A stretch of 64,000 bases of DNA from Vulcanimicrobiota bacterium (GTDB taxonomy: Bacteria > Vulcanimicrobiota > Vulcanimicrobiia > Vulcanimicrobiales > Vulcanimicrobiaceae), in assembly GCA_027459645.1 (NCBI GenBank), contig DAIDHQ010000004.1, positions 1 through 64,000 of the forward strand, read 5' to 3'. The position numbers and the translations under genes are program-made. Position 1 is the stretch's first letter. Each line of letters starts with the position of its first letter. Of the stretch, positions 18,567-32,414 are shown piece after piece. Under the pieces are notes generated by a model, which saw only the letters and a list, made by a program, of their open reading frames with translations, was not told the DNA's origin and made no database searches.

Positions 18567-18641
18567 CGGGCTGTAGCGCAGCTTGGTTAGCGCGCTTGAC
18601 TGGGGGTCAAGAGGTCGCTGGTTCGAATCCAGTCAGCCCGA
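18567..18641 (+). tRNA. tRNA-Pro (GGG anticodon)
   Basis: A cloverleaf can be drawn: the acceptor CGGGCTG pairs with CAGCCCG; the anticodon stem is CTTGA/TCAAG with loop CTGGGGG, giving anticodon GGG; the T arm is CTGGTTCGAATCCAG; the discriminator is A. The CCA end is not encoded. Its 3' part is the integration site of the element that follows, and integration keeps the gene intact. Confidence 0.95.
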
Positions 18642-18645
18642 TAGT
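18600..18645 (+). repeat. attL: 46-bp direct repeat with the tRNA-Pro 3' half
   Basis: The 46 bases from the anticodon loop through the tRNA 3' end plus ATAGT recur perfectly at 31005-31050. A perfect repeat of a tRNA 3' half flanking an integrase-bearing segment is the mark of site-specific integration, so this is the tRNA-proximal attachment site. Confidence 0.93.
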
Positions 18646-18682
18646 AAAAAAGCCGCGAAATCGAGTGTTTCGCGGCTTTTTG
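18646..18682 (+). terminator. Rho-independent terminator after tRNA-Pro
   Basis: AAAAAGCCGCGAAA pairs with TTTCGCGGCTTTTT around a short loop and ends in a T run. It works for the tRNA transcript, is near-symmetrical, and now lies on the element side of the left repeat. Confidence 0.8.
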
Positions 18683-18702
18683 TTTAAGTCTATTCTCGGT
18701 TG

Positions 18703-18725
18703 TGTCCCAATTTGTAGCCCAATTG
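18703..18725. promoter_or_regulatory. Candidate integrase arm-type sites, left end
   Basis: Two copies of CCCAATT (18706-18712 and 18718-18724), in GTGTCCCAATTTG and GTAGCCCAATTG, sit 60-80 bases inside the left repeat. The same two motifs occur inside the right end. Paired motifs near both ends are expected for arm-binding sites of lambda-type integrases. Confidence 0.45.
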
Positions 18726-18745
18726 CTTGAGAGAGGGTGTTCGTA

Positions 18746-18961
18746 GTGCATTACTTTGTAGTCGTAAATGGATTCGGGGCGATCGAGGTTTCCGAGGTCG
18801 AGTGGACGCGGGTCGAGGCGCTTTTCCGCGACGGATCGGATGGGTGGGTGAAGCTAACGCCGGCAGAGGGCGTCGATACTTACCTCATTCGCGCCAACCA
18901 TATCATCGGGCTGACGTCCTCCCCGCAGAAGAAGCGAAGCGCCTTCGCCGCCGCGATCTAA
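18746..18961 (+). CDS. Small hypothetical protein at the element left end
   Basis: A 71-residue protein. I use GTG 18746 because GAGAGAGGG lies about eight bases upstream; another GTG nine bases earlier is possible. The sequence (HYFVVVNGFGAIEVSEVEW, then VDTYLIRANHIIGL) alternates hydrophobic and polar residues and looks like a small all-beta protein. No family recognised. It is the only rightward gene at this end and converges on the integrase with a four-base overlap. The corresponding position is empty in the decayed sister element outside the right repeat. Confidence 0.55.
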   Translation: MHYFVVVNGFGAIEVSEVEWTRVEALFRDGSDGWVKLTPAEGVDTYLIRANHIIGLTSSPQKKRSAFAAAI

Positions 18962-20169
18962 GCGCCTGAGGCTCGGATTTCGCTAAAGAGGGCGTCGACG
19001 CGATCGGCCGCTTCTCTTTGCATCGAGGGCATAACGTGGCTGTAGGTGTCCATCGTAACGGCTATGCTCGCGTGGCCGAGTCGTTCTTGCACGACCTTCG
19101 GCTGGACGCCTAATTCGAGCATCATGGTCGCGGCGGTGTGCCGCAGATCGTGAAAGCGAATCGCGGGGAAGCGGTCCGCTAGGCGTCCCGCTTTCGCTGC
19201 TTCCTCATCGACCTTCGCCTGAATGCTCCGCAGCATCGGTTCGAACGATCGCCGGATAAAGTTCCGGGGACAGATCGGGCTTGCTGCCTCGCTGGGGAAT
19301 ATCCAGGGCGCCATGCGGTTCTCGGCCATTAGGCGCGCCCTATGCTCGCGTAACGCTCGGACGGCAACGCTCGGAAGGTCGATGCGCCGGCGTCCCTTGG
19401 CGGTTTTGGTATCCGCGACGATAGGCTTCCCGTGAAGCGTAACGATTGAGCGCACGACGGAAAGCGCGCATTTGTCAAAATCGACGTCGGCCCATTGCAA
19501 GCCGAGCAGTTCGCCACGCCGAAGGCCGCACGTTAGGGCCAAGACGTACAGTGCATAGAAGCGCGTCGTCGCGGCCTCCTGAAGAAGAAGCGCGACCTGT
19601 TCCCGATTCAAGGTCAGCATTTCGCCGCGCGCGGATCTCGGCTTGTCCACGATACTTGCAACATTCCGGGGAACGAGGTCCCACTTAACCGCCTGGTCGA
19701 GTGCGGACGAGAGCGTAGTGAGGACCAACGCCTGCGTTCGCTCCGACTTGCCGTCGCGTTGCATGGTGGACAGAATGCCCTGAACGTCCTGCGCTGTTAG
19801 CGCGTCGAGCCGACGTGCGCCTATCGTCTCGAAAATATGGTTCTTCGCAAGGCTCCGATACAGTTCCAGCGTCGTGGGACGCACCCGTGCGGCCATAACG
19901 TCGTCAAGCCATCGTTGCACGAACGCCGAAACCGTTGTGCGCTCTCTGCTTGGCACAATTCCCCGCGAAGCGTCCGCGTTTAGCCGCGCGATCTTCGTCG
20001 CAAGCTCGGCACGCGTTTTCGCATACAGCGTGATTCTCCGAGCCTTTCCCGTTTTCGGGTCAAGCCCGAGGGAGACTCGACCGCGCCACCGCTCGACGAT
20101 CGTTCCGTCTTTTCTGGCGCGTCGTATTTTGTCGATCGCGCCGTCTCCATTACTACGCCGCGCCTTCAT
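18958..20169 (-). CDS. int: Tyrosine recombinase (phage-type integrase)
   Basis: A 403-residue integrase. I start it at the ATG overlapping the upstream stop (ATGA). An N-terminal arm-binding domain (VERWRGRVSLGLDPKTGKARR), a core-binding SAM-like domain (VSAFVQRWLDDVM) and a catalytic domain are present. Active-site residues are visible: Arg217 (CGLRRGELLG), His340 and Arg343 (FHDLRHTAATMM), His366 (RLGHAS) and Tyr376 (DTYSHV). It should recombine the tRNA-Pro site with the circular element. It is the last gene of the leftward operon, an unusual place because integrase expression then depends on the operon promoter at 25284. Confidence 0.95.
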   Translation of the reverse strand: MKARRSNGDGAIDKIRRARKDGTIVERWRGRVSLGLDPKTGKARRITLYAKTRAELATKIARLNADASRGIVPSRERTTVSAFVQRWLDDVMAARVRPTTLELYRSLAKNHIFETIGARRLDALTAQDVQGILSTMQRDGKSERTQALVLTTLSSALDQAVKWDLVPRNVASIVDKPRSARGEMLTLNREQVALLLQEAATTRFYALYVLALTCGLRRGELLGLQWADVDFDKCALSVVRSIVTLHGKPIVADTKTAKGRRRIDLPSVAVRALREHRARLMAENRMAPWIFPSEAASPICPRNFIRRSFEPMLRSIQAKVDEEAAKAGRLADRFPAIRFHDLRHTAATMMLELGVQPKVVQERLGHASIAVTMDTYSHVMPSMQREAADRVDALFSEIRASGA

Positions 20170-20834
20170 TTGGCGGCTCCCTCCGTGCATTTAGGGACGG
20201 CTGTGGGCCACGCGTTGGTCGGGGTATGTGAGAGACGCCACTCGATATTGCTATCGACCTGTTCCATCGCTCCTCCACCGGTTGCGAACGTGGCGGCAAG
20301 CGTATGCGGCCATGCCACGCAATGCTCGTCGGACGCGTCACCGGACGTTGCGTGCGCTACCACGCGGTATGCTACCGTACTGTCGGGCGCAAATAAGCTT
20401 GGCGACGCTGAGAAGTGGTTAAAGACCAGAACCTTGGTAGTCGAGGCTCCGCCAGGGAGCATAAAGGGCGCAAAGTCGGCCTTTATAAACGGAGTGGTAG
20501 CACCTTTTGAGGTGGGATCGTGAAGGAATGCCTCGATGGAGTCTGCCCTAATTGAGAACCACGCAGTATACGTTGCTACATGACTGCCGGCGGTTTCTTT
20601 AAGCATTACATCGGTTATCGTTGTGGCTTGGGCGCCATCGTTTGAGAATGTAACAGGAACGATAATATGGTCGCCTCCTCGGGTGCTGGCCGCGACCGTT
20701 GCAAAACTGACGCTAAGTTGCGCGGGGCGAGCAGTCCACCATAACGTCAAGAACGAAATTAAGAGTGATACGACCGCGAAAAGGGTGCTTAAGGTCCATA
20801 CGCTTTCCCTATGTAGGCTTCGCTTCTGACTCAT
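20166..20834 (-). CDS. Membrane-anchored hypothetical protein
   Basis: A 222-residue protein starting MSQKRSLHRESVW at an ATG overlapping the upstream stop (ATGA). One transmembrane segment near residues 15-36 (LFAVVSLLISFLTLWW) is followed by a probably extracytoplasmic beta-rich domain (QLSVSFATVAAST, IIVPVTFSNDGAQATTITDV) that resembles an immunoglobulin-like sandwich, with two cysteines in the last 70 residues. No named family recognised. A cell-surface role is inferred only from topology. Confidence 0.6.
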   Translation of the reverse strand: MSQKRSLHRESVWTLSTLFAVVSLLISFLTLWWTARPAQLSVSFATVAASTRGGDHIIVPVTFSNDGAQATTITDVMLKETAGSHVATYTAWFSIRADSIEAFLHDPTSKGATTPFIKADFAPFMLPGGASTTKVLVFNHFSASPSLFAPDSTVAYRVVAHATSGDASDEHCVAWPHTLAATFATGGGAMEQVDSNIEWRLSHTPTNAWPTAVPKCTEGAAK

Positions 20835-21310
20835 TTCCCACCAAACCCCCGAAAAATCGCGCGTCCCGCATTCCCAAACGCGCGCCAAAAAACGTGCTGC
20901 GCTCCGCGTCTGACGATCTTCTCGGGATTCCCGGAAGCGACGGCTTCGGCGTCACCAAGAATACTGCCGGCGCGATACAACCCGCCACGAATAGAACCGG
21001 TCGACGCTACGCCGGCAGCGACTGCGCCAAGCGCGGCAACCTGCGGGATAGCGTTGCCGGAACTGAACCACGCGTCGGCTAGAACGTCCGCGGCAGCGTC
21101 GAGCGCCGTGTTTTCAATCGGCGTTACGTTCTTCTGCATCACGGCGATAACGTCGAGGTTGCGCTCCTTGCATACCACGCCGACCTCCGCGCCGAGTTCC
21201 GCCGTCTTTGCGATCGCCGCAGTAAGCGCTGCGCGTAGGGTCGCCGCAACGTGCGGATCGAGCTTCGCAAACACGCCCGCGGCTCGCGAACCGTCACTCG
21301 TTGGAATCAT
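20831..21310 (-). CDS. Hypothetical element protein with Gly/Ala-rich helical segment
   Basis: A 159-residue protein. The N-terminal 55 residues look helical and soluble (VAATLRAALTAAIAKTAELGAEV). The centre has a Gly/Ala-rich hydrophobic stretch (IPQVAALGAVAAGVASTGSIRGGLY) that could insert in a membrane, and the end is basic and aromatic (FWRAFGNAGRAIFRGFGG). No family recognised. The gene is joined by ATGA overlaps to both neighbours. A decayed piece of a homologue lies at 31527-31630 with nearly the same central peptide, so the gene is a recurring part of this element family. Confidence 0.6.
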   Translation of the reverse strand: MIPTSDGSRAAGVFAKLDPHVAATLRAALTAAIAKTAELGAEVGVVCKERNLDVIAVMQKNVTPIENTALDAAADVLADAWFSSGNAIPQVAALGAVAAGVASTGSIRGGLYRAGSILGDAEAVASGNPEKIVRRGAQHVFWRAFGNAGRAIFRGFGGK

Positions 21311-22227
21311 AGGGCACTCACTTTCCGGCGCTGCTCCATCTCCGCGGAAAGCCGCGCCTCTGCTTCGCGGTCGGCCTCGGTGGTGTTAGGCATTGCCGCG
21401 ATACCGTAGTCGCGCGTCTCCGCCTTGTTCGTGCCCGAAGCTGTCGCGTGCTGCGTCGTAAGGGCTTTGAGGATATTTCCGTCCATCATCATGGCCGGCA
21501 TCCCCGGCATGTATGCCGTACCGTCGCGCGGGTCAAGGTGAACGATCGGGACTCCCGTCGCTGCTTTGAGGCTTAGACCGGCCTCCCTGGCGCGAGAGCA
21601 GAATTCGTAATCTTCGCCGTGATCGGCGCGAAGCGTGAACGGATCGGGGCCGACCTTTTGAAGCGCACTTGCGCGCATGAGCACGAAGTGAAATCCCGCA
21701 GTCTCAATCGGGACGACCTGCCCAAATTGATAGTCGATACCTAAGCGCAGATAGCTTTCGGAATCGCTCGCGTCTCGATATGCAAACGGCGGCGCATAGG
21801 GCGTGCGCGCCCCGAACATGGCAAAGACGATATCGGCGGTGCGATCTTGGTGCATGCCGTTCATAAGCGCCTCGACCGTTCCAGGTTGCCACCATGCGTC
21901 GTCGTCAACCCACAGGACGTACCACTCGCGCGGTACGAACGACAGAGGGTTCGCGTCTATCGCTTCGAGCGCCAATCGTGCAAGCTGATTACGCGCCTCG
22001 ACTACGGGCCTTCGCGCCACCATGCACGAGAGGTGTTCGATACCCTGGAGATTCATCCGAAGCGCAAGCTCCGTCTCGAACGTGATTTGTCCGCGCGTCG
22101 GCATGCAGACGATTAGCGCGTCCTGGTCCCGGCGTGGCTTGCGCTGCACCGCCTCTTTCGTAAGGCAGCAAACCTTGTATTTGCGCCCACTACCGCACGG
22201 GCAGGGCGCATTGCGACTGACGTTCAT
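21307..22227 (-). CDS. SEC-C zinc motif fused to GT-A glycosyltransferase-like domain (copy 1)
   Basis: A 306-residue protein. The N-terminus NAPCPCGSGRKYKVCC is a textbook SEC-C zinc-binding motif. After a short linker, a Rossmann-like GT-A domain follows: IVCMPTRGQITFETE, RRPVVEARNQLA, and WYVLWVDDDAWWQPGTVEAL, where DDD fits the nucleotide-sugar/metal DxD motif; then FHFVLMRASALQKVGPDPF and HGEDYEFCSRAREAGL, the acceptor-side ED pair of family-2-like transferases. It may glycosylate a host or phage component, but no acceptor is known. The fusion and its paralogue at 22400 are unusual cargo. ATGA overlaps join it to a 20-codon ORF upstream and the 159-residue gene downstream. Confidence 0.8.
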   Translation of the reverse strand: MNVSRNAPCPCGSGRKYKVCCLTKEAVQRKPRRDQDALIVCMPTRGQITFETELALRMNLQGIEHLSCMVARRPVVEARNQLARLALEAIDANPLSFVPREWYVLWVDDDAWWQPGTVEALMNGMHQDRTADIVFAMFGARTPYAPPFAYRDASDSESYLRLGIDYQFGQVVPIETAGFHFVLMRASALQKVGPDPFTLRADHGEDYEFCSRAREAGLSLKAATGVPIVHLDPRDGTAYMPGMPAMMMDGNILKALTTQHATASGTNKAETRDYGIAAMPNTTEADREAEARLSAEMEQRRKVSAL

Positions 22228-22286
22228 TTCGTATATCCCAAGGGTGTCTCAATTTCGGCGCCCTGTGATACTGTAGGATTTGCCAT
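22224..22286 (-). CDS. 20-residue leader ORF, remnant of a duplicated gene start
   Basis: ATG at 22286 is preceded by an AAGAAAGG-type ribosome site and runs 20 codons (MANPTVSQGAEIETPLGYTK) to a TGA overlapping the start of the SEC-C gene (ATGA). The first seven codons and the upstream bases resemble the start of the 253-residue gene at 24161 (MANSSVS). The simplest reading is a truncated duplicate of that gene, kept as a translational leader. Confidence 0.45.
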   Translation of the reverse strand: MANPTVSQGAEIETPLGYTK

Positions 22287-22399
22287 AGGAAACCAGCCTT
22301 TCTTGTGGCTGAGGCCGCTCGCGTCTAGACACCGGCGCGGGTGGCCGTTTGAGTTAGTGGGACTATTCGGGGTAGGAGTAGGCGCGACTCTGCTAGCGG

Positions 22400-23410
22400 T
22401 CATCCGCGGAGCCTCTCGACCCGGCGCTCTTTTTGCATGGCAGACTTTCTGAATTTCTCAATCGCGCGAGGGCCAACGACGTCCCGGATCATGTCCGCAA
22501 GAGGCGGCGGCTTCCCGAAAATGCCTTCATAGAGGACGACAAACCGTCGTAGCTTTTCAAGATGTAGGCGTATCGCCTCGGCCGTTTGAAACTCGCGCGT
22601 CACGGCGGTTTCAATATCCCGCCCGTATACTCTGGGGACGGGAACCGGAAATATCCCCGACGCGGGCGCATCTTCAGCCGGCGCAATCTTACCTTTCGTA
22701 ATTCTTTGGACCGGTTCAAAGGGCAGGTACGCGAGGCCCGTGTCCGTATCGACATGCGCTACTTTTACGCGCTGAGCTACGGCGAGCTCTCCGCCAATCG
22801 CGCGAATCCGAGCGCAAAAGATGTGATCTTCGTATTGGCCATCCTTCTCAATGGAGAACGGCTTAGGCCCAAGCTTATCGAGTAACGAGAGCCTGTGAAT
22901 CCGAAAGTGACCGCCGCAGCTTATGATCCTGAGCAGATCGCACCCGTGCGCGCACGCCCGGTAGTCGGAGTCGCGTAAAAGTTCATTAAACTCCAGGATT
23001 GGTCCCAAATTCGCAACCCGAGCTGAATAAAGGCCCGCTATCAGGTCGATATCGGCGTGCTTTATAGCGAGATCCAGAATATCTTTAACGGCTCCGCGCG
23101 GCCACCATGCGTCGTCATCGACCCAAAGGACGAACCATTCATGGTCAGCATCGAGCGCGCCGGATTCGCGATCGCGAAGGATCTGCTCGCACAATTCATT
23201 GCGCGCCTCTACGACGGGCTTGCCAACCACACGATACGTTCGCTTCGGTAATCCGTCAAAGTGGTAGCGCAAGGCGTAGGCGGTTTCCCGCGAGAGGCCG
23301 CTGCGCGTAGGCGTTGCGACCGCGATCGCCGGAGGCTTCGCGCGGCCACAGCACTTTTTATACTTGACGCCGCTGCCGCATCGGCAAGGCCCGTTGCGGC
23401 TAGTGTTCAT
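22400..23410 (-). CDS. SEC-C zinc motif fused to GT-A glycosyltransferase-like domain (copy 2)
   Basis: A 336-residue paralogue of the gene at 21307. I chose the ATG giving MNTSRNGPCRCGSGVKYKKCC, since this SEC-C motif matches the other copy; the longer frame lies inside the upstream gene. The GT-A part has PVVEARNELCEQIL, HEWFVLWVDDDAWWPRGAV, GGHFRIHRLSLLDKLGPKPF and QYEDHIFCARIRAIGG. Compared with copy 1, the C-terminus is about 50 residues longer, with a helical basic tail (FRKSAMQKERRVERL). The divergence between copies suggests different acceptors or donors. The start overlaps the 253-residue gene by 11 bases. About 110 bases without a clear feature separate its stop from the leader ORF. 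Confidence 0.8.
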   Translation of the reverse strand: MNTSRNGPCRCGSGVKYKKCCGRAKPPAIAVATPTRSGLSRETAYALRYHFDGLPKRTYRVVGKPVVEARNELCEQILRDRESGALDADHEWFVLWVDDDAWWPRGAVKDILDLAIKHADIDLIAGLYSARVANLGPILEFNELLRDSDYRACAHGCDLLRIISCGGHFRIHRLSLLDKLGPKPFSIEKDGQYEDHIFCARIRAIGGELAVAQRVKVAHVDTDTGLAYLPFEPVQRITKGKIAPAEDAPASGIFPVPVPRVYGRDIETAVTREFQTAEAIRLHLEKLRRFVVLYEGIFGKPPPLADMIRDVVGPRAIEKFRKSAMQKERRVERLRG

Positions 23411-24161
23411 CTGCTGTTCCCGCGTCAACGTCGCGCTGCGCTTGCTCGAGGTATTCGCGGTTCTGACGCGCCTTATATTGCGCGTTCTGCTCGTCAAGCT
23501 GCCTATTAGCAAGGGCGAGCGCCGCGCTGAGGTCGCCGGCCAGCTTCACACCATAGCCGGGGCAAAGACCCCTGAGGGTACTCACCGGGAACAGGTCCTC
23601 GGCAAGGATGCGCGCGATGATCGCTTCACGCAGCTTTCGCTCCCGTTCGGTTAGCGGTTCGCGCATCCAATCTATAGCGTGACCACTTGCAGAGCGCACG
23701 ATCGCCTCGGCTGCGATAATCGGGTCGTTACTCATGCTTGCGTCATCCGTTGCAGGTGTTCTGGCCGGCGTGCTGGCTTTGGTGCCCTCCGTCTCGCGCC
23801 AATTGCTCGCGTAGGGCGCCGGTGATTCGCCTTCGATGCATTCAAACAAGAAGTTCGACCGATCAAGGAACCTCACGTCTCTGCTCGCACTATAAAGCTC
23901 GTCCTGAACGCCGAAAAGCGCGACGAGCCACCTCTGAGCCGGTTCCATAACCCGAAGCCGGTGCAGTCGCTTCCTATCACGCAGGGCCGCAAGGTCCGTT
24001 AGTTCCTCGGCCATCTTCCGCGACTCACGCGCGATCTTCTCGCACGACTCTGCCTCGCGAATGAGATCGCGAACAATACGCTTTCGGTTCGCCTCTTGAA
24101 TCCGCAACGAGTCGACGAACGGAGGCAAGTAGTGGCGCCGTGATACACTCGAATTTGCCAT
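23400..24161 (-). CDS. Hypothetical helical protein
   Basis: A 253-residue protein. The first 70 residues are strongly charged and helical (ESCEKIARESRKMAEELTDLAALRDRKRLHRL), probably a coiled coil. The centre is Ser/Thr/Pro-rich and low complexity (TEGTKASTPARTPATDDAS). The last 100 residues are again helical (TERERKLREAIIARILAEDLFP, ALALANRQLDEQNAQ). No known domain recognised. It follows the bS21-like gene after a 70-base gap holding a GC hairpin and precedes the SEC-C/GT copy 2 gene with an 11-base overlap. Scaffold-like composition is suggestive only. Confidence 0.55.
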   Translation of the reverse strand: MANSSVSRRHYLPPFVDSLRIQEANRKRIVRDLIREAESCEKIARESRKMAEELTDLAALRDRKRLHRLRVMEPAQRWLVALFGVQDELYSASRDVRFLDRSNFLFECIEGESPAPYASNWRETEGTKASTPARTPATDDASMSNDPIIAAEAIVRSASGHAIDWMREPLTERERKLREAIIARILAEDLFPVSTLRGLCPGYGVKLAGDLSAALALANRQLDEQNAQYKARQNREYLEQAQRDVDAGTADEH

Positions 24162-24186
24162 GAGAGATCGTTCCTTTCGTGGTCAT

Positions 24187-24215
24187 GCCTCGGGGCGTTC
24201 GTGCGCCGCCGAGGC
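24187..24215 (-). promoter_or_regulatory. GC-rich hairpin between the bS21-like gene and the next gene
   Basis: GCCTCGG (24187-24193) pairs with CCGAGGC (24209-24215), with extra GC pairs inside. On the leftward transcript no U run follows, so it is more likely an mRNA stability or processing structure than a terminator; on the plus strand it is followed by T-rich sequence. Confidence 0.35.
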
Positions 24216-24231
24216 GTCTTTGTGTTTTGTG

Positions 24232-24420
24232 TTACGCGGCTTTAGCCAATCGCTTGCGTGCCTGGCGCGCTTTGCGGCGCCGCCGTTCTCCGCGCGGGAT
24301 GAAACACTCGTGCCGCGCGAATTCACCTCGCGGGGTCTTTTCGAGATTCCGTCTGAACCGTTGGAGCGCCGATTCGATCGGCTCGCCCGGTGCGACGTAA
24401 ACCATGCGTCGGTCGTTCAT
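24232..24420 (-). CDS. Ribosomal protein bS21 homologue carried by the mobile element
   Basis: A 62-residue basic protein. After MNDRRM, the run VYVAPGEPIESALQRFRRN, then LEKTPRGEFARHECFIPRGE and a K/R-rich tail (RRRRKARQARKRLAKAA) align with bS21: the EP..ALRRFKR..E core, an R.REFYEKP-like site and a basic helix. bS21 sits near the anti-Shine-Dalgarno of 16S rRNA and assists initiation. Phages are known to encode bS21 homologues that may bias host ribosomes. The start overlaps the serine recombinase stop (ATGA). Exchange for host bS21 is inference. Confidence 0.8.
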   Translation of the reverse strand: MNDRRMVYVAPGEPIESALQRFRRNLEKTPRGEFARHECFIPRGERRRRKARQARKRLAKAA

Positions 24421-25139
24421 GCGTTGCTGCCTTCTTGTGCCATTTTGGAGTTCAGGACCGCGGAGATAGAGCCGGCAGTCCACTTGGTAGCGCGGTGAGG
24501 ACGAACGCCGCGCGCGTCGAGCATCTCAGCGATCGCGCGGTACGTGTGACCGCTCGCGCGCATCGTTTGCATTTCGGCCAGCGCTTCGAGTTCATCGGGA
24601 ACCGCGACGAGCGCGTCGTTCTCGTAGGCGTAGCCGAACGGCGGAAATTTTGAGTAGCGCTTGCCGCTGCGGCGACGGAATCCGAGAACGTCGCTGGTGC
24701 GTTCGGAGATCCGGCCGCGTTCGAATTCCGCGAACGTGCCGAGCAGATGCACGACCATGCGGCCAACCGCGCTCGACGTATCGAGCGACTCGGACGCTGA
24801 GAGTAGCGCCGTGTTGGTCTGCTGGCAGAGGTCGAGCAGTTCCAGAATGTCGCGAAGGTTGCGGCTGAGCCGGTCGAGCTTAGTAACGTACACCGCGGCG
24901 ACCTCGCGGCGTTTGATCTTGCCGAGAAGCTCCATCATCGCGGGTCGCTCGAGGTTTGACCCCGAGAAGCCATCATCGACGAGGTACGCATCGACCGGGT
25001 GAAAATCACGGCTGACTTGCGCGAATAGCTCGATACGTGCGCGCTGAGCGTCTATCGAGAAGCCCGCTTGCGCCTGCTCAGAGGTCGATACCCGGACGTA
25101 TCCGACAATCATGCGCGGCGCCACAGATCGCTTGGCCAC
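24417..25139 (-). CDS. Serine recombinase (resolvase/invertase family)
   Basis: A 240-residue protein starting at GTG 25139, which comes two bases after the stop of a 33-residue ORF; ATG at 25112 is the alternative. The catalytic domain begins MIVGYVRVSTSEQ with nucleophile Ser18 (first Ser of RVSTSEQ), then DDGFSGSNLERPAM, YVTKLDRLSRNLRDIL (conserved Arg pair) and LLGTFAEFERGRISERT. It ends in a short recombinase-type DNA-binding part (PPFGYAYEND, GHTYRAIAEMLDARGVRPHR). It is much smaller than large serine integrases. A second recombinase beside a tyrosine integrase may invert or resolve DNA; no inverted target sites were found. Confidence 0.9.
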   Translation of the reverse strand: MAKRSVAPRMIVGYVRVSTSEQAQAGFSIDAQRARIELFAQVSRDFHPVDAYLVDDGFSGSNLERPAMMELLGKIKRREVAAVYVTKLDRLSRNLRDILELLDLCQQTNTALLSASESLDTSSAVGRMVVHLLGTFAEFERGRISERTSDVLGFRRRSGKRYSKFPPFGYAYENDALVAVPDELEALAEMQTMRASGHTYRAIAEMLDARGVRPHRATKWTAGSISAVLNSKMAQEGSNA

Positions 25140-25141
25140 GA

Positions 25142-25243
25142 CTAGGCCGCCTTCTTGAGCGAAATCGCGACCGGCGTTGCCGGCGGCTTCGGGTCGTTCT
25201 TTGATTGGCGGTAGGCGTCGAGGCTGATTATCTGTGCGCTCAT
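25142..25243 (-). CDS. 33-residue small protein at the head of the recombinase operon
   Basis: ATG at 25243 has an AAAGAAAG-like ribosome site and encodes MSAQIISLDAYRQSKNDP and so on, ending SLKKAA. Its TAG is two bases before the GTG of the serine recombinase. The ISLDAYR pattern is common in very short phage proteins, but I cannot name a function. It is the first gene after the promoter at 25284-25306, so it may act as a leader for translational coupling. Confidence 0.55.
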   Translation of the reverse strand: MSAQIISLDAYRQSKNDPKPPATPVAISLKKAA

Positions 25244-25278
25244 GGTGCTTCTTTCTTTTGCGACCGTTCGGTACTTGA

Positions 25279-25306
25279 ATTATAGCACTAGTGCTAACTA
25301 GCGCAA
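25279..25306 (-). promoter_or_regulatory. Sigma70-type promoter overlapped by a palindromic operator
   Basis: Read on the minus strand, TTGCGC (25306-25301), a 16-base spacer and TATAAT (25284-25279) form a good promoter for the leftward recombinase-to-integrase operon. The perfect 14-bp palindrome TAGCACTAGTGCTA (25283-25296) fills most of the spacer and touches the -10 box, and a further half-site ACTAGCGC follows at 25297-25304. Occupancy would block polymerase. The nearby RHH protein is the obvious candidate repressor. Confidence 0.65.
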
Positions 25307-25355
25307 GAGGGGCAAAACCATGCTGAGCTAGGGAGCGGCGCGAACCATTCCCGGC

Positions 25356-25577
25356 ATGGCCAAGAAAGAGGCAGAAACGCCCTCCACGACGCGAGTTCAG
25401 GCCCTGGTCGATACTGAGGTCGCCAACCGGATGCACGACGTCAGAGCGGCCCTGAGACGCGAAAGCGTGCATGTTAGCGTTAGCCACTTCGTGGAGATCG
25501 CGCTCCGCGAGATCTTGAAGCGTCCCGATATTGCTCAGGTCATGCGGAAATATAAGGCCACGGCGCGCCGCGACTAG
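25356..25577 (+). CDS. Ribbon-helix-helix type transcriptional regulator
   Basis: A 73-residue protein. A predicted beta strand (TTRVQALVDTEV) is followed by a helix (ANRMHDVRAALRRE) and a second helix (VSHFVEIALREILKR), the order of MetJ/Arc/CopG ribbon-helix-helix proteins, with a basic tail. Such dimers bind short palindromes, and one lies 60 bases upstream of its start, over the divergent promoter at 25284. It is the only rightward gene in the centre of the element, converging with the small-terminase candidate by four bases. Control of the divergent operon is inferred from position. Confidence 0.65.
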   Translation: MAKKEAETPSTTRVQALVDTEVANRMHDVRAALRRESVHVSVSHFVEIALREILKRPDIAQVMRKYKATARRD

Positions 25578-26089
25578 CATGGCTTCGCCTGCGGTAGCGC
25601 GCGGCCGGCAGCGATAATCGCACGAAGCTCGTCGTCGCTAAGGTCCTGCAATATCGCCGTTTGCTTGCGCGCGTCGATCGTGACCGAAACGCCGTCCGGT
25701 TGCAGCAGTCCATGAATACGCGCGAGCATTTCAAGGACGCTTTTTGCCTCGCGCACGGCCTTAAGCGCGAGCAAATCATCGTTCGCACCCTCCGCACGCG
25801 TTAAAACGCCTTCTGCGCGGCTCAGCAAAACGTCCGCGCGTTCGATAATCGAGCGCGCATCTGTTGCAGGGCGAAGCGCAACAGTTTTTGCAGGTAAATC
25901 CTCTTGCGCGCCCGCGCTGCCGTTTTTCTGCGTACCGGAGAGTCGCAGGCAGTTCTTCCGGTGCCGCATGACGGCTGCCGAGGTGACCTTGAACCGAGAC
26001 GCCAGGGGACGAATCGTATCACCGGCGCAGAGTGCTCGAGTGATCTCCCATCCGCGGGGATTGGTGCAGATTGAGCAGACTTGCGGCAT
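25574..26089 (-). CDS. Zinc-finger/HTH protein, small terminase subunit candidate
   Basis: A 171-residue protein starting MPQVCSICTNPRGWEITRAL, with an ATGA overlap at the upstream gene stop. The N-terminal CxxC and a later Cys (RHRKNCLRL) surround a helix-turn-helix (IRPLASRFKVTSAAVMRHRK), a module often found in phage DNA-recognition proteins and small terminase subunits. The middle is helical (IIERADVLLSRAEGVLTRAEG), which fits oligomerisation, and the end has LQDLSDDELRAIIAAGRALP. It sits in the same operon as TerL, with one gene between. The small-terminase role is an inference; a general DNA-binding regulator is the alternative. Confidence 0.5.
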   Translation of the reverse strand: MPQVCSICTNPRGWEITRALCAGDTIRPLASRFKVTSAAVMRHRKNCLRLSGTQKNGSAGAQEDLPAKTVALRPATDARSIIERADVLLSRAEGVLTRAEGANDDLLALKAVREAKSVLEMLARIHGLLQPDGVSVTIDARKQTAILQDLSDDELRAIIAAGRALPQAKPC

Positions 26090-27126
26090 TATGCCACCCC
26101 CTGTTCTCGTTCCAATTTCGTACTGCGAAGCAGGTCCGAGGAGTTCGTTAAGACGTGCATGCGGGCACAATCCGCTTTCGAGATCGGCGCGCCGTGAGGA
26201 CAGCAGTTGCACGGGAAGTGATTTGAGCCACAGCTCTCACAAGGGTCCTCTCGGAATACGCGCGGCTTGGGATCGTCGCAGCGGCCAACATGGAACATGC
26301 CGCAAACGCCACACTCCTTAAAGTGGCGGCCAGCGGTTTTCGGTATCTTGTCGCAAGGATCGGACGGGGTGTCGGGTTCGATGCCCTCTTTCAGCATCCA
26401 AAGCGCGTAGGCGAGAGGGTTGCCGACGTTATCCCTTGCGCTTGCGACATCGAGGTGAACGAGTAGCGCATCGACGTTGGCAGCGCCGATCTGCTTAAGA
26501 ATCCGAGCCGGTTTATTGCTCGGCTTGTCTGGTACGCCATACCGATCGAACGCTTCAGCCAGAATGGCGAGCAGATCGTCGCCTCCGGTGGCTTCTTCGT
26601 TTTTTTCAAAGCTTGCGTCGTCGTGCGTATTAATTGGTGTAGAAGGTGGAGTATTGTCTGGCGGGGGCTGGGAGAGCTTTTGTCCAGCCGCTGGGAGAGC
26701 ATTTGTCCGGGCGCTGGGAGAGCTTTCCGATGATGCTCCGTCAGTAGCTGGGAGGGCTTTAGCTCCGTCATTGGCTGGGAGAGCTTCGTAACGCAAGGTG
26801 TAAATCGGGGGCTTCGGGCCGCAGTTCTTAACGCTTAAAATCCCCGCTTCTTCTAAGACGGTGATGGCTTCTCCAATTCGTTTTTCGCTAAGCCCCAGGT
26901 GCTTCCCGATTGCCTTCTGTCCCCAAGTCGAAAGCGTATTGGTTCCATAGTCTCGATGTCGGCTTATCATCATCGCGACTCCGAGGGCGTTGAAGCGATA
27001 CCTTGGCTTCGCGTAGATCGCGCTCCACCACCACAGCGGGACAATGGGTTCGGGCTGTGGTATCCTAGTCGAAGCGGTTTTAGACTTACTCGCCGGAGTT
27101 GACGCTCCGGTTTTTTCTTGCTCCAT
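26089..27126 (-). CDS. Winged-helix protein with Cys-rich tail, possible replication protein
   Basis: A 345-residue protein. ATG 27126 has GGAGAG seven bases upstream, so I reject a longer frame inside terL. Residues 30-100 (AKPRYRFNALGVAMMIS, GQKAIGKHLGLSEKRIGEAI, LEEAGILSVKNCG) form a winged helix like those of phage replication initiators. A Ser/Pro/Asn-rich linker follows, then a helical domain (DLLAILAEAFDRYG), then a cysteine cluster (CGVCGMFHVGRC, CESCGSNHFPCNCCPHG), probably binding two zinc ions. The layout resembles phage or plasmid replication proteins, but no helicase or primase motif is visible. It lies between TerL and the small-terminase candidate. Confidence 0.55.
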   Translation of the reverse strand: MEQEKTGASTPASKSKTASTRIPQPEPIVPLWWWSAIYAKPRYRFNALGVAMMISRHRDYGTNTLSTWGQKAIGKHLGLSEKRIGEAITVLEEAGILSVKNCGPKPPIYTLRYEALPANDGAKALPATDGASSESSPSARTNALPAAGQKLSQPPPDNTPPSTPINTHDDASFEKNEEATGGDDLLAILAEAFDRYGVPDKPSNKPARILKQIGAANVDALLVHLDVASARDNVGNPLAYALWMLKEGIEPDTPSDPCDKIPKTAGRHFKECGVCGMFHVGRCDDPKPRVFREDPCESCGSNHFPCNCCPHGAPISKADCARMHVLTNSSDLLRSTKLEREQGVA

Positions 27127-27145
27127 TGCAAACTCTCCGTGCTCG

Positions 27146-28507
27146 CTAACATATAGCGAAGAAAAACTCCGAGCCGGTTTTCGCTTGTGAAAGAACCATC
27201 GCGAACGCATCCACCATGTCGTCATGGTCGCCCGAGGGAAACTCACAAAGCTCTGCTTCGAAATCCGCAAGCCAGCGCGCCGATTTTGGCAAGTGGACGC
27301 GGCCCGCTTCAATCGTTCCGGTAATCGCCTCTACGCGCGACTCTTTGCTTCCGACCGGCTTAATCGCGACGATCGGGAGGGACGAGTCATCTTTGAGCTG
27401 CTGAATCAGCGCCGTGGCGTTCGAGGTGTCCTCGGCATAGATCGTGCTCGGGTTGTGCTTCTCGTATGCCGCGAGGACCATGCGAAGCAGATCCGGGAAT
27501 TCGACGCGCCGCCGCTCGACGTCGAGGACGAAATATGCGTTGCCCTTCACGCCGAGGGTTACGATCGCGGAGTAGTCGTTCCGCACGCCGGTCTTGCTCG
27601 CCGCGTCGAGTGCTTGGATGACGCGATCGAACGACTCCGGAGGGCTGTCGTAACGCTCGAACCAATCGAGCTTTATGAGGTTCCCCGTATCGTTCGTTGG
27701 CGCGCCTTGGTACTGTGCGGCGAAGTGCCGGCTTCCAATATCTTCGCGAATTGCCTCAAGGGCTGCGACGTCGAATCGTTCCGGCCAAAGAGCTTCCCCC
27801 GGTTGGCGCCCGAGGATATCGTCGTCCTCTGCGAGCGCCGGCATACGGACGTAGGTCCATTGCTCGCCACGCGGGCCTTTCATAAGCCGGCGCGGGAGAT
27901 CGTCGTTTGGCCAGCGCGTTTGTACGATAACGACCGCGCCGTTAGGCTCTAAACGCGTGAGCGCTTTTCCGCGGAACCAATCTTCGAGGCCGTCCAATTC
28001 TGGCTTCGATGACTGACCATCTTCGAGATCGTCGCAGAGGAGCAGCGGCGCGCGCCAGCCGGTGATCGTGCCGCCGACGCCGACGCCGAACAAGCCGCCG
28101 CCTTCGCTCGTTTCCCAGGCGGTGGACGCGGAGGCATCGGGTGCGAGCTTGGCGCTAAACGGCCACGATGCTTCGGTGAAGCAGTCGCGTACCGCGCGGC
28201 TGTTGCGTACCACAAGGCGTTCCGCGGCCGACGTCGCGATGATCTTCCGACGCGGGTCGCGTCCGAGATACCAGGCGGCGAACAATTGCAGCAGCGTACT
28301 CTTACCGCTGCCGGGATGCAGGGAAACGATAACGCGTCGAAGCCCACCCGCCTCTACCATTTCGAGGATTTCCGCGAGATAGCGGAGGTGCGGGGGCGCT
28401 TGGAAGCCGAGGTACATTAGGCGGCAGAAGTCCGGCAAATTGCGCCGAGCGAGTTCCTTTTCCGCGAAGGTTGCAACGGTGCGGGTCTTGAGATCCGTCG
28501 TCGTCAT
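27146..28507 (-). CDS. terL: Phage terminase large subunit
   Basis: A 453-residue packaging motor. ATG 28507 is preceded by GGAGGGAG. The ATPase has Walker A SLHPGSGKST (about 62-71) and Walker B APLLLCDDLED (about 153-163), followed by the motif-III-like VVIVQTRWP. The RNase H-like nuclease has its first Asp in QALDAASKTG (Asp301) and the last acidic cluster in GDHDDMVDAFAM. It cuts and translocates DNA into a procapsid. It is the only packaging-machine gene here, since no portal or capsid is present; it could package the element into a helper's particles. A terminator-like hairpin separates it from the upstream gene. Confidence 0.93.
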   Translation of the reverse strand: MTTTDLKTRTVATFAEKELARRNLPDFCRLMYLGFQAPPHLRYLAEILEMVEAGGLRRVIVSLHPGSGKSTLLQLFAAWYLGRDPRRKIIATSAAERLVVRNSRAVRDCFTEASWPFSAKLAPDASASTAWETSEGGGLFGVGVGGTITGWRAPLLLCDDLEDGQSSKPELDGLEDWFRGKALTRLEPNGAVVIVQTRWPNDDLPRRLMKGPRGEQWTYVRMPALAEDDDILGRQPGEALWPERFDVAALEAIREDIGSRHFAAQYQGAPTNDTGNLIKLDWFERYDSPPESFDRVIQALDAASKTGVRNDYSAIVTLGVKGNAYFVLDVERRRVEFPDLLRMVLAAYEKHNPSTIYAEDTSNATALIQQLKDDSSLPIVAIKPVGSKESRVEAITGTIEAGRVHLPKSARWLADFEAELCEFPSGDHDDMVDAFAMVLSQAKTGSEFFFAIC

Positions 28508-28536
28508 TCCGCGCTCCCTCCGCATTGAAAGCGCGC

Positions 28537-28576
28537 AAAGGCCGACCCGTTGAGTATGGAGACGGGCCGGCCTTTT
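28537..28576 (-). terminator. Strong hairpin between the control genes and terL
   Basis: AAAGGCCGACCCGT (28537-28550) pairs with ACGGGCCGGCCTTT (28562-28575), with one mismatch and an 11-base loop. It has short T runs on both strands (TTT on minus, TTTT on plus), so it could terminate or attenuate transcription entering terL. No strong separate promoter for terL was recognised. Confidence 0.55.
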
Positions 28577-28636
28577 GCTACTGCCGACTGCGCCGAGAGG
28601 GGTGACGCAGCGGACGTTTGGGAGGGGCGCATCCGA

Positions 28637-28999
28637 CTACTGCGGCCCCGTGCCGCTCTTGTCGCGAATCGCGATCATCTGCCGGAGGGCTTTTCGGAAG
28701 CCAGCGATGCCGCCGCCGTTCGCCATGATCTGTTCGTTCGTCGGCTGTGGTTGCGTCATCGACGCTTCGATCTCGCCCGCAATGTCTTTAGCGGTTGGCG
28801 GCGAGTTCATCTCGCGCCGCTGAAGCCGTGAGTAGTAGTCGCCTTCGACGGCTCGTCCGCTCGGCGTCATTCCCGGCGCGTCGACGGTTCCGCCTTTTAC
28901 GACGTCAGCGATCGTTTTCGCCTTGCCCTTCTGGGCGTATTCGAAATAGATCGGGAGCGGTTTCGCCGCGTTGGCTTTTTGTTTGGCTGTGTTCTTCAC
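28637..28999 (-). CDS. Hypothetical element protein
   Basis: A 120-residue protein starting at GTG within a GTGA overlap with the upstream stop. The N-terminus is Lys/Ala-rich (MKNTAKQKANAAKPLP). The centre has YFEYAQKGKAKTIADVVKGG and DAPGMTPSGRAVEGDYYSR. The end is helical (GGIAGFRKALRQMIAIRD). No family recognised. Its place just before terL is where small-terminase or head-associated genes often lie, so it is an alternative small-terminase candidate. Confidence 0.55.
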   Translation of the reverse strand: MKNTAKQKANAAKPLPIYFEYAQKGKAKTIADVVKGGTVDAPGMTPSGRAVEGDYYSRLQRREMNSPPTAKDIAGEIEASMTQPQPTNEQIMANGGGIAGFRKALRQMIAIRDKSGTGPQ

Positions 29000-29466
29000 G
29001 ATTGAACCTCCTCGACGTAGAGATGGGGGTGCTGGGTCTTGTGGGCCACGATTTTTTCGTGCCGATTGTACGCACGAGCAGTCGCGAGATCGCGGTCGTG
29101 CTTCGCGCGTTGGTAGGCAGTCTGTGCTTCCACAAAACGATCTTTGGCGAGGTTTAGCTCAGTCTGGGCGACGATAAGGTTTTCGTGCGCCTCTTTGCCC
29201 AATCGCTCGGCCTCGCGCCACGAATCAATCAGCGCGGCTTTTTCCTGGTGTGGAATTTGGCGCTGGATATGATTCCGAATCGCATCGGCGGTCTTGAGGT
29301 CTTCCTCAAGCTCAGTAATTTTGCGCTTTAACGCTTTGCAATCCGCGCCATCTGCGCCAGCTTTCCCAAGTCTCATTTCTAAGTCGATCATCTCGGCTTT
29401 GCCTTGGGCGATTTTGTCCTCGATTGTTGCGAGGTGCGCCGGGTAGTCTTCACTGTTGGTGGTCAT
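28996..29466 (-). CDS. Coiled-coil hypothetical protein
   Basis: A 156-residue protein, almost wholly helical with heptad-like spacing (DKIAQGKAEMIDLEMRLGKA, LKRKITELEEDLKTADAIRN, AQTELNLAKDRFVEAQ), so it should form a long coiled coil. No catalytic motif. It is joined by ATGA and GTGA overlaps to its neighbours and so is translated with the Xre-like regulator and the gene before terL. Possible roles include scaffolding or structure, but the sequence alone does not decide. Confidence 0.6.
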   Translation of the reverse strand: MTTNSEDYPAHLATIEDKIAQGKAEMIDLEMRLGKAGADGADCKALKRKITELEEDLKTADAIRNHIQRQIPHQEKAALIDSWREAERLGKEAHENLIVAQTELNLAKDRFVEAQTAYQRAKHDRDLATARAYNRHEKIVAHKTQHPHLYVEEVQS

Positions 29467-29693
29467 TGGTTTTGTGGTCCCTTCTCGTCCGCTTCAAGGA
29501 CGGAGATCAAGTCTTTGGTCAGGTCGCTCCAGGGGAGCGTGTAGGCTTGCTCAAGCCGCGCTTTCGTCGAACGTGAAACGCTTTTGCCTGACTCAGCGCG
29601 CCTAAGTGTCCAGCGTGAAACGCCTGTTGCCACAGAGGCGGCGTTGATCGTACCAAACCGCACTCGCCTCAAAATTCGAAGGCATGTTTCCAT
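29463..29693 (-). CDS. Xre-like helix-turn-helix regulator
   Basis: A 76-residue protein. GTINAASVATGVSRWTLRRAESGKSVSRSTKARL reads as the five-helix Xre/Cro fold: helix 2 ASVATGV, recognition helix SRWTLRRAES, then the typical GK.VS..T...L. It starts three bases after the excisionase-like gene's stop and its own stop overlaps the coiled-coil gene (ATGA). As the second gene after the divergent region it is a candidate control repressor. Confidence 0.7.
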   Translation of the reverse strand: METCLRILRRVRFGTINAASVATGVSRWTLRRAESGKSVSRSTKARLEQAYTLPWSDLTKDLISVLEADEKGPQNQ

Positions 29694-29695
29694 TG

Positions 29696-29869
29696 CTAGG
29701 ACCCGGCCCGGTTGCGACTCACGAACGCTTCAATGTCATCGATCGATAGACGCACGAGTCGTCCGATGCGAACGTGAGGGAGCTGCCCTGTCTTAATGAG
29801 GTTCCAAACTGTGCGTTCACTAACGCACAGAAGCGCCGTAGCACCGCGAACCGACATCAGAGTTTTCAT
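29696..29869 (-). CDS. Excisionase / AlpA-type helix-turn-helix protein
   Basis: A 57-residue protein with the MerR-like HTH_17 pattern MSVRGATALLCVSERTVWNLIKTGQLPHVRIGRLVRLSIDDIEAFV: helix-turn-helix, wing with RIGR.VR, then D.EAFV. Such proteins act as recombination directionality factors or as regulators. I start at ATG 29869; the frame extends further upstream through the divergent gene but without the motif. It heads the leftward control and packaging operon. The 85-base region to the divergent 29955 gene must hold promoters, but I cannot pick convincing boxes. Confidence 0.75.
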   Translation of the reverse strand: MKTLMSVRGATALLCVSERTVWNLIKTGQLPHVRIGRLVRLSIDDIEAFVSRNRAGS

Positions 29870-29954
29870 GCTTACGGAAATACTCCAACAGGAGCAGCGC
29901 CTACCTCCGCGAACGTATGAGTTGGTGAATTGACGCTGGACAGGAATAAAAACT

Positions 29955-30857
29955 ATGAGCAGGCCACAGGGTATGAGGTTAAGCGGTGAAAGTTCGAGCG
30001 CACTGAAGGTGCGCGCGGACACGATCCAGCTAATGCTGCTGGCCTGCGTAAACGCCGAGCAGTATGCCGCCGCCATTGGAACGTCGTACAAGACCCTTGA
30101 AAGAGCCCTACGTCTAGGTGACTTGCGCCGGGGGTCTGCGGTTCAGAGTCAGCCGCCCATGAGCATGGAGCACTATTACCGCCTCAAGTTTGCCGTCAAA
30201 GCTCTTGCGATCGAGTCGCCATACCTGTCGAAGAAGGGGAAAACCGAGGGCCGTGTCCCGGACAGGACTGTCGGCGCTCCGCGAGAGGTCGTAGTTGAGG
30301 CTATGGCGGGAGAGGAGCGGGTTTCGTTGCTTGGATGGTCCCAGGAGTATGCTGCTCGCGCTCCGCTAACTCGTTCTCTTTCCGCGGTCGACGTAATCAA
30401 TACATACTTCTGGAACACCGCTGGCAACGCGAGCTTAGTCACGCGTGCTCTTACGAAATCAAAGGCTCAGGACTACGCCGGCAAGAGAGGCTATCGCCCC
30501 AAGGAGCACGACGTAAGAGCGGCCCTTGCGGCATACTGTGAGCGTATGAAGGCACGCTTTCTACAGCGCGCGCCATCGCGGATCGGTAGAGCCAGCGTCG
30601 AGCGGCGTATTCAGGACTACATGAGCCGGCCCCATGAAGAACAGGGAACGCCGCCCCATCCCCGGTTTTTGCGGATGGAAGATCGGGCTAGAGCAATTCA
30701 AAAGGAGCGCCTTGAGCGTTTACTGACGCAATATCAGCCAATCGTGCTGGCCCGGCGAAACCTTGAGTCCGGGGATCGCTTGCGGTCGCGCGCCGCCCTG
30801 TCGGTTGGAGAAGAAGCTCTCCTGTGGGAGATTTTCCGAAAGCCACTCGACGCGTAG
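29955..30857 (+). CDS. Hypothetical protein at the element right end, possible HTH
   Basis: A 300-residue basic protein with AGGA before ATG. Residues 28-60 (MLLACVNAEQYAAAIGTSYKT, then LERALRLGDL) may be a helix-turn-helix. The rest is rich in Arg and helical (RRIQDYMSRPHEEQG, RAIQKERLERLLTQYQ), with an odd aromatic patch (VDVINTYFWNTAGNASLVTRAL). No known domain recognised. It is divergent from the excisionase-like gene, the position of an activator or immunity gene in many prophages. About 150 bases without a gene separate it from the right repeat and hold the arm-type motifs. Confidence 0.5.
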   Translation: MSRPQGMRLSGESSSALKVRADTIQLMLLACVNAEQYAAAIGTSYKTLERALRLGDLRRGSAVQSQPPMSMEHYYRLKFAVKALAIESPYLSKKGKTEGRVPDRTVGAPREVVVEAMAGEERVSLLGWSQEYAARAPLTRSLSAVDVINTYFWNTAGNASLVTRALTKSKAQDYAGKRGYRPKEHDVRAALAAYCERMKARFLQRAPSRIGRASVERRIQDYMSRPHEEQGTPPHPRFLRMEDRARAIQKERLERLLTQYQPIVLARRNLESGDRLRSRAALSVGEEALLWEIFRKPLDA

Positions 30858-30880
30858 CCCAATTGTGTGTCCCAATTGGA
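30855..30880. promoter_or_regulatory. Candidate integrase arm-type sites, right end
   Basis: GTAGCCCAATTG and GTGTCCCAATTGG contain two CCCAATT copies (30858-30864 and 30871-30877) in the same orientation as the pair at 18706-18724 but in opposite order. They lie about 130-150 bases inside the right repeat and overlap the end of the 300-residue gene. Confidence 0.45.
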
Positions 30881-31004
30881 ACGCAAATAGGGGCAACGTC
30901 GTGCAATCTCGTGCAAGAGGCGAGCGGCGAGAATAGCTTAATTAGACGGCGTTTTTCCGCTGCTTGCAACGGGCCGCAATGTTGTGCAATATGGCAAAAT
31001 CAAG

Positions 31005-31050
31005 CTGGGGGTCAAGAGGTCGCTGGTTCGAATCCAGTCAGCCCGATAGT
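31005..31050 (+). repeat. attR: second copy of the 46-bp tRNA-Pro 3' repeat
   Basis: Identical over 46 bases to 18600-18645, carrying the tRNA-Pro anticodon loop to 3' end without the 5' half, so it is not a functional tRNA. It marks the distal boundary of the element. The bases just before it (CAAG versus TGA) already differ. Confidence 0.93.
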
Positions 31051-31103: not shown

Positions 31104-31215
31104 CCCGTTGAAACGGATGAGACCCGACCATAAAAAAGCTTCAAAACCCTAGCTTTTTGCGGCTTTTGCTTTGAGTCGCAATTCCACTTGTAGCCCAATC
31201 ATTCGGAACGCCGGC

Positions 31216-31430
31216 GCATGATCGCGCTGCGCGCAGTTCGCTAAAGAGAGCGTCTACGCGGTCCGCGGCTTCCCGTTGCATCGACGGCACGACATGGCTG
31301 TACGTGTCCAGCGTAACGGCGATGCTTGCGTGGCCGAGCCGTTCTTGAACGACCTTCGGCTATACGCCTTATTCGAGCATCATCGTTGCCGCGGTAGAGC
31401 GCAGATCGTGAAAACGTATCGGCGGAAAAA
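31216..31430 (-). pseudogene. Decayed C-terminus of a sister integrase
   Basis: Read on the minus strand it gives FHDLRSTAATMMLE, stop, GV, stop, PKVVQERLGHASIAVTLDTYSHV and AADRVDALFSEL, nearly the same as the intact integrase. Where the intact gene has GAATTAGGCGTCCAG, this copy has GAATAAGGCGTATAG: two nonsense changes between the HxLR box and the GHAS/Tyr boxes. The second catalytic His is replaced (DLRST for DLRHT). The N-terminal three quarters are gone. Confidence 0.88.
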
Positions 31431-31526
31431 CATGCGCTCAACGGTGCGCGGTATCAAGCCCCTAGACGGCTTGATCTAAAGCCGCCGATCCCCCGAGTTC
31501 GCCATTTCAATTGCTTCCAACGCGGC

Positions 31527-31630
31527 GCTGCGTCGAGCGCCGTGTTCTCAATCGGCGCGACGTTGCGCTGCATCTCCGTGATAACCTCGAGATTGCGAGC
31601 TTTGCATGCGACGCCCACCTCTGCGCTGAC
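31527..31630 (-). pseudogene. Fragment of a homologue of the 159-residue element gene
   Basis: On the minus strand it encodes AEVGVACKARNLEVITEMQR followed by NVAPIENTALDAA, close to AEVGVVCKERNLDVIAVMQK and NVTPIENTALDAA in the intact gene at 20831. It has neither start nor stop. About 100 bases after the integrase relic, it keeps the gene order of the intact element with the intervening gene deleted. Confidence 0.8.
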
Positions 31631-31852
31631 TCGAGTCGTTGAAGAACAGCCGAGCCGTTCCGCTCAGCGTGGTGCCGTATGCGCCGACCGACAGTCTCTC
31701 GTCGGCAGGAACGTAACCACGATGAAGCAATACCTAGCTACCGGCTGCCCGCTTCACATGGCGATGACACTGCTCAACTGCAGCTTCTGGGCGAACGGGG
31801 TCCTCGGCGCCCAGTCGCTCGCACCCAGCTTCTAACGCAAGGAATCGACTAC

Positions 31853-32329
31853 ATGAAACGTATGCTCGCGATCTGCGGGCTCGCACTTGCCATCGTTGCA
31901 GGCGCGCGCACGCCCGTCTCGGCCGACGGGGCGCCGATCAATTACCACAACGGATACATCAAGATAACCAACGCCGCCAATATGCCGCTCTATATCTACG
32001 GCATTCGGCACGCCCTGGTGCCCGGGGGGGCGCTCGGTATCACGATCGACGGGAAAACGGTCGTGCCTCCCGGCGCTGTGTTCTATGCCAACCGCTGTTG
32101 TTACGCAGCCGGCTCGGAGTACGAAATCGCCGCCTCGTACTATGAAGACCGAGCGGAAGCCGAGCGAGTTCACGCCCTTGCGACGAAGCGGGTCTTTTTG
32201 GAATTATGCCGCCACGGGAGCATATGGCTTGGGTCTGCCGACGTCAAATTTTACGGCGAGCTACGTGCGGGTGTGCGTGAGATCGGCTTTGGGAGTTACC
32301 ACCAAGCGACCCCGGACAGGACGTGCTAG
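31853..32329 (+). CDS. Secreted cysteine-containing protein, tandem copy 1
   Basis: A 158-residue exported protein. Signal peptide MKRMLAICGLALAIVAGA with likely cleavage after VSA near residue 24. The mature part (INYHNGYIKITNAANMPLYI, GALGITIDGKTVVPPGAVFY, then ANRCCYAAGSEYEIAASYYE) looks like a small beta protein with a CC pair and a third cysteine in LELCRHGS. No family recognised. A second copy follows at 32415 with an almost identical first 45 residues. AAGGAA lies 12 bases before ATG. Confidence 0.65.
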   Translation: MKRMLAICGLALAIVAGARTPVSADGAPINYHNGYIKITNAANMPLYIYGIRHALVPGGALGITIDGKTVVPPGAVFYANRCCYAAGSEYEIAASYYEDRAEAERVHALATKRVFLELCRHGSIWLGSADVKFYGELRAGVREIGFGSYHQATPDRTC

Positions 32330-32414
32330 CTGTGTGGTCGCTAACGCTAAGGCGAACCCTCGGCGGCGAGGCTACTCGCGCCGAACTTCTACTGAAACGA
32401 TAGGAATCCAAGAT

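Follow-up and report, generated by a model that had tools for sequence, protein, structure and literature searches.

What does a gene for ribosomal protein bS21 do on a small mobile element, and why does its start codon overlap the stop codon of a recombinase? Large lytic phages of aquatic habitats commonly encode a bS21. The copy considered here lies in a stretch of 64,000 nucleotides from a Vulcanimicrobiota bacterium (contig DAIDHQ010000004.1; hereafter the window). A reading of the letters alone had proposed that it is a bS21 homologue, translationally coupled to a serine recombinase within a small integrated element, and that reprogramming of translation is part of the induction programme of that element. 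The features around the junction are as follows.

24232-24420, reverse strand: element-borne bS21 homologue of 62 aa (PF01165), in a clade with seven other element bS21 proteins
24417-25139, reverse strand: small serine recombinase (PF00239, E 7e-35; phrog_95, E 4e-62), with an ATGA overlap with bS21
25142-25243, reverse strand: leader ORF of 33 aa, read from the sequence, ending two bases before the recombinase GTG
25267-25275, reverse strand: conserved motif AGTACCGAA, immediately 3' of a TATAAT (25284-25279) and shared with genomes G062 and G066
25283-25296: perfect 14-nt palindrome TAGCACTAGTGCTA, an inverted repeat near the TATAAT
25356-25577, forward strand: divergent small gene of 73 aa, a candidate regulator, facing the recombinase promoter

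The assignment of the protein to bS21 is well supported. Its 62 residues (MNDRRMVYVAPGEPIESALQRFRRNLEKTPRGEFARHECFIPRGERRRRKARQARKRLAKAA) are basic and match PF01165 with 43.6 bits (E 2.4e-11), well over the curated cut-off of 27 bits, at profile positions 2-54 of 55, so that the whole domain is covered. The protein is 44% identical to the bS21 of its host and 36% identical to that of E. coli; its match to the PHROG S21 family is weak (17.8 bits). The protein retains the basic tail and the helix motif at its N-terminus, and in the middle and C-terminal half FIPRGERRRRK replaces HYEKPSVRRKKK, with the loss of one residue. AlphaFold predicts a structure of three helices (mean pLDDT 80); ribosomal bS21 chains take the top three places among its PDB matches, none of these three being significant, while a PDB search with a profile of the element bS21 proteins matched ribosomal bS21 alone.

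The host genome, of 3.14 Mb and 96.6% complete, contains three PF01165 genes over the cut-off. The host rpsU is located on another contig (C39:20334), in its usual setting between an HIT-family gene and a yqeY-like gene (locus L007; both neighbours were named by reading their sequences), and a third, element-borne bS21 is found at C39:56498. A canonical rpsU thus being present elsewhere in the genome, we reject the possibility that the window copy is a host gene captured in place. This separate rpsU, together with the att repeats that bound the carrier, confirms that the window bS21 is additional to the host gene and resides on a small integrated element, whose phage derivation is indicated by the TerL, integrase and excisionase genes around it.

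This carrier occupies 12.4 kb (18600-31050) in tRNA-Pro, holds roughly 18 genes and is bounded by a 46-nt perfect direct repeat of the 3' end of tRNA-Pro(GGG). Besides the junction genes, it comprises:

18600-18645, forward strand: attL, the 3' part of tRNA-Pro(GGG) (18567-18641)
18958-20190, reverse strand: tyrosine integrase (PF00589, E 8e-26)
21307-22227, reverse strand: protein with a SEC-C motif and a glycosyltransferase-2-like part (PF02810, E 1e-9), with homologues in loci L008 and L097
22400-23512 (start approximate), reverse strand: second SEC-C protein (PF02810, E 1.7e-4)
23400-24161, reverse strand: gene directly downstream of bS21, without Pfam or PHROG match
25574-26212, reverse strand: probable small terminase subunit (TerS), named by position alone, without Pfam or PHROG match
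26089-27129 (start approximate), reverse strand: O-like replication initiation protein (phrog_391, E 6e-6)
27146-28525, reverse strand: large terminase subunit, TerL (PF17289, E 3e-20; phrog_38, E 2e-114)
29463-29693, reverse strand: weak helix-turn-helix regulator (HTH_31, E 0.007, under the cut-off)
29696-30091, reverse strand: excisionase-like helix-turn-helix protein (PF12728, E 8e-10; phrog_66)
31005-31050, forward strand: attR, perfect 46-nt repeat

The gene for the small-terminase candidate is conserved and adjoins TerL at most of its loci in the phylum. The two SEC-C proteins are homologous to each other, show weak glycosyltransferase-2 similarity and are conserved in the elements of C39 and G066; models of anti-phage defence yielded nothing beyond weak matches, most of them to the SEC-C motif. 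Among the window genes, several small ones of which have no assignment, the search detected no portal, capsid, protease or tail family. The same search in a complete relative phage (L113, in genome G058) returned portal, protease, major head, neck and tail proteins, and the lack of head and tail matches in the window element is therefore informative. Just right of attR, positions 31141-31663 contain remnants of another such element, now decayed (pieces of an integrase and a gene like that at 20831, with 81-83% DNA identity), so the tRNA-Pro site has probably been used more than once. The region also includes a tandem duplicate of a small secreted protein gene (31834-32133 and 32396-32695, 85% identical).

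The gene content suggests that the carrier is satellite-like and not an ordinary prophage. Two further elements have the same build: a 13.7-kb one lies in tRNA-Leu on C39, a contig of the genome under study, and an 11.3-kb one in G066. Related elements use tRNA-Pro, tRNA-Leu and other tRNA genes. The C39 element encodes a 1258-aa tape measure protein (L008:3598-7374) homologous to one in the complete G058 phage, and the search revealed no further gene for a head or tail in this element. With its 12.4 kb and its att repeats, the window element falls within the ~12-15 kb that characterize PICI and, like them, shows no recognizable structural or lytic genes, the tape measure being carried by its C39 relative; having no capsid or portal match, it does not resemble the capsid-forming PICI, which have a capsid of their own.

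Alternatively, the carrier could be a decayed prophage and its bS21 the remnant of a larger temperate phage, a history that would be compatible with any functional reading of the protein. The tape measure protein still present in the C39 element and the decayed pieces right of attR speak for it. However, matching perfect att repeats and intact genes go together with the same lack of head genes in no fewer than three elements (11-14 kb) from two genomes, and the 20 kb read of the complete G058 phage contain no bS21. We consider decay doubtful and retain a satellite-like carrier as the preferred interpretation.

How widespread is such a bS21? We surveyed 149 genomes of the phylum. bS21 is present in all 85 genomes with a completeness of 90% or more and a contamination of 5% or less, normally as one host-type copy of ~65-84 bits. 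Eight divergent, element-type copies of 28-52 bits were recognized, in the window and C39 elements and in six further genomes; additional weak S21-like matches, among them those in G128 and G100, are chance overlaps. In G139, a member of the phylum with a large genome, rpsU is present in three host-like copies (L085, L088, L115). Six of the eight element-type genes lie no more than 3 kb from a TerL homologue: immediately upstream of it in G054 and G066, 0.3 and 0.9 kb upstream in C39 and G117, 0.2 kb downstream in G099 and 2.7 kb downstream in the window, where no MCP or protease gene was detected near bS21. Since some 28 TerL loci with 3 kb on either side represent, by estimate, roughly 0.04% of the DNA searched, this proximity is not due to chance. 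The G016 copy adjoins an integrase and an excisionase, without TerL, and that of G037 is near an apparent transposase. Of the related TerL loci, only some one in three have a bS21, which is therefore an optional component.

The eight element bS21 proteins form one clade (support 99/95) joined to the host bS21 of the same class, and the clade persists (92/87) when outgroups are included and the three longest rows are removed; with 57 columns and long branches, the tree is good but not final evidence. The topology suggests that bS21 was probably captured once and has long been kept in elements. The single clade speaks against repeated recent captures from each host, with the caveat that branches are long and columns few. 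An N-terminal EP.(D/E).AL.RF and a C-terminal R.R.K are kept in all or most element bS21 proteins, and the reading frames are intact, implying selection.

The junction itself can be read directly: ATGA is common to the recombinase stop TGA (24419-24417) and the bS21 ATG (24420-24418), and a Shine-Dalgarno-like AAGAAGG lies ~9 bases 5' of this ATG, within the recombinase gene. The recombinase, which also matches part of Recombinase PF07508, starts at GTG 25139 or at ATG 25112; the segment singled out by the original prediction, which runs up to 25243, takes in the 33-aa leader ORF besides recombinase and bS21. The predicted overlap is thus real, and it is kept in another genus: G066 has the order TerS, divergent small gene, recombinase, bS21, TerL, with an identical ATGA and a recombinase 55% identical to that of the window. 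It probably recurs in G054, whose contig starts inside an ORF that overlaps bS21 by GTGA; the end of this ORF resembles a recombinase C-terminus, aligning with a score of 65 where shuffled sequences reach at most 50. The further claim of one operon with recombinases, in the plural, holds for the single serine recombinase but not for the tyrosine integrase, which lies 4 kb further downstream.

The recombinase and bS21 are not always found together. In four of the eight cases (C39, G117, G016 and G037) no recombinase directly precedes bS21, which is therefore independent of it, and in G099 TerL sits between the two genes. The recombinase of G062, 68% identical to that of the window, is located between TerS and TerL, with another small gene replacing bS21; more distant relatives of the window recombinase have no adjoining bS21.

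The region upstream of the recombinase may hold its control signals. AGTACCGAA recurs at L097:11608-11616 and L111:3793-3801, in the same place 5' of the recombinase in G062 and G066, and in none of the element loci examined beyond the window and these two genomes. It lies just downstream of a likely -10 site and may be an operator, a start region or a crossover site. A strict scan for the sigma-70 consensus left the TATAAT site unflagged because its -35 hexamer is poor. A homologue of the divergent small gene, 56% identical, occupies the equivalent position in G062, and G066 has a weaker one; the product of the window gene, modelled as all-helical, matches no Pfam or PHROG family. This arrangement leads us to infer that the recombinase-bS21 transcript is regulated, with a promoter active at the TATAAT site and a role for the divergent protein.

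We propose that the bS21 of the window is a variant dedicated to a family of small elements that integrate into tRNA genes, carry terminase and are probably phage satellites. The variant may reprogram host translation, and we hold this reading of the sequences with middling confidence. Upon induction of the element, or during development of a helper phage, the recombinase-bS21 transcript would be produced from its own promoter, and the element bS21 would be loaded onto host 30S subunits, which its loose binding and exchangeability would permit. The altered C-terminal half, located near the anti-Shine-Dalgarno tail in known ribosomes, could then shift the choice of the mRNAs that are initiated at packaging. 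The serine recombinase probably has a separate function, resolution or rearrangement, expressed from the same regulated transcript. Much more tentatively, satellites might keep their own bS21, co-transcribed with a serine recombinase, in order to steer ribosomes to satellite or helper late mRNAs during packaging.

Reprogramming of translation by an element bS21, as originally predicted, is plausible in view of published work. bS21 is exchangeable and near the anti-Shine-Dalgarno, and in Francisella the proteome is altered by one of its paralogues (PMC9578407); E. coli ribosomes can take up a bS21 of phage origin (PMC6375957); and phage bS21, encoded near TerL, is expressed late, with late replication or late genes (PMC9723584). 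The original prediction also envisaged Shine-Dalgarno features that would set element genes apart from host genes. No such difference emerged, with medians of -5.6 kcal/mol for 31 element genes and -3.5 for 23 host genes (p=0.15), in a weak test for which start sites were assigned roughly, by rule. An ordinary anti-Shine-Dalgarno tail is present in relatives of the host, whose own 16S rRNA is missing from the assembly, so nothing special is needed to start translation; this, like the optional presence of bS21 beside TerL, counts against the proposal.

The homologue could instead no longer act in translation, having been recruited as an RNA- or DNA-binding protein to packaging or to the regulation of recombinase and terminase. 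The adjacency to TerS or TerL in six of eight cases, the coupling to the recombinase and a C-terminal half that has diverged and lost one residue are consistent with such a role, for which the moonlighting of bS21 in the OLE ribonucleoprotein complex (PMC12054373) offers a precedent. Yet the whole bS21 domain is kept, including the N-terminal helix motif, the element profile retrieves only ribosomal bS21 chains, and the copies in G016 and G037 are not beside a terminase, so that we regard a non-ribosomal role as unlikely. We give still less credence to a dominant-negative subunit, whereby ribosomes carrying the element bS21 would translate poorly and the element would gain from impaired helper or host synthesis: E. 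coli ribosomes with a pelagiphage bS21 are ~5% active (PMC6375957) and satellites often interfere with their helpers (PMC6092414), but the element needs translation too, and the ~5% activity may reflect species mismatch. Passive capture of a functionless host gene, compatible with the host-like origin of a clade that joins the host bS21 of the same class, is disfavoured and very improbable, as decay or repeated recapture would be expected instead of one old clade with long branches, intact frames and a junction and neighbourhood conserved in many genera.

A dedicated, translation-modifying bS21 would, if true, extend ribosome remodelling from phages to their parasites, with ribosome specialisation exerted by a satellite and not by a phage. 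On a 12-kb element with roughly 18 genes, each of them must pay its way, and the findings suggest that even tiny elements may try to retune host ribosomes. A single old lineage, comparable across genera and with host and element copies side by side, makes the role of a mobile bS21 easier to test.

In the literature searched, of which coverage was incomplete, we found no report of bS21 in phage satellites. At the sensitivity used, tblastn and pattern scans of IMG/VR, INPHARED and GTDB species revealed no clade members outside the phylum, the matches there being ordinary host rpsU or apparent pieces of host rpsU in phage records; TerL relatives in IMG/VR, ~30% identical, have no bS21 nearby. Several known systems share part of the arrangement. 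Francisella also has several bS21 variants per genome, one of which can change the proteome (PMC9578407), but these paralogues are not described as element-borne, whereas here two extra copies are on integrated elements. Virus-encoded bS21 that enters ribosomes is known from pelagiphage HTVC008M, alongside 1310 viral bS21 contigs (Mizuno et al. 2019, PMC6375957); these are mostly aquatic and lytic, with temperate signature genes in 3 of the 1310. PICI (Fillol-Salom et al. 2018, PMC6092414) resemble the window element in their 12-15 kb, in their integrase, replication module and regulators, and in that no structural or lytic genes are found; some carry TerS, to which the window element adds TerL and bS21. 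Large Bacteroidetes phages (Chen et al. 2022, PMC9723584) likewise place bS21 a few genes from TerL, in a late-module position. These phages, however, reach 331 kb, lack an integrase and carry bS21 on the strand opposite the structural genes, while the window element is 12 kb, integrated and without capsid genes, with bS21 on the TerL strand and overlapping a recombinase. Phage bS21 beside terminase is thus known from large, mostly lytic phages; what is new is a bS21 lineage in small, integrating, capsid-less elements.
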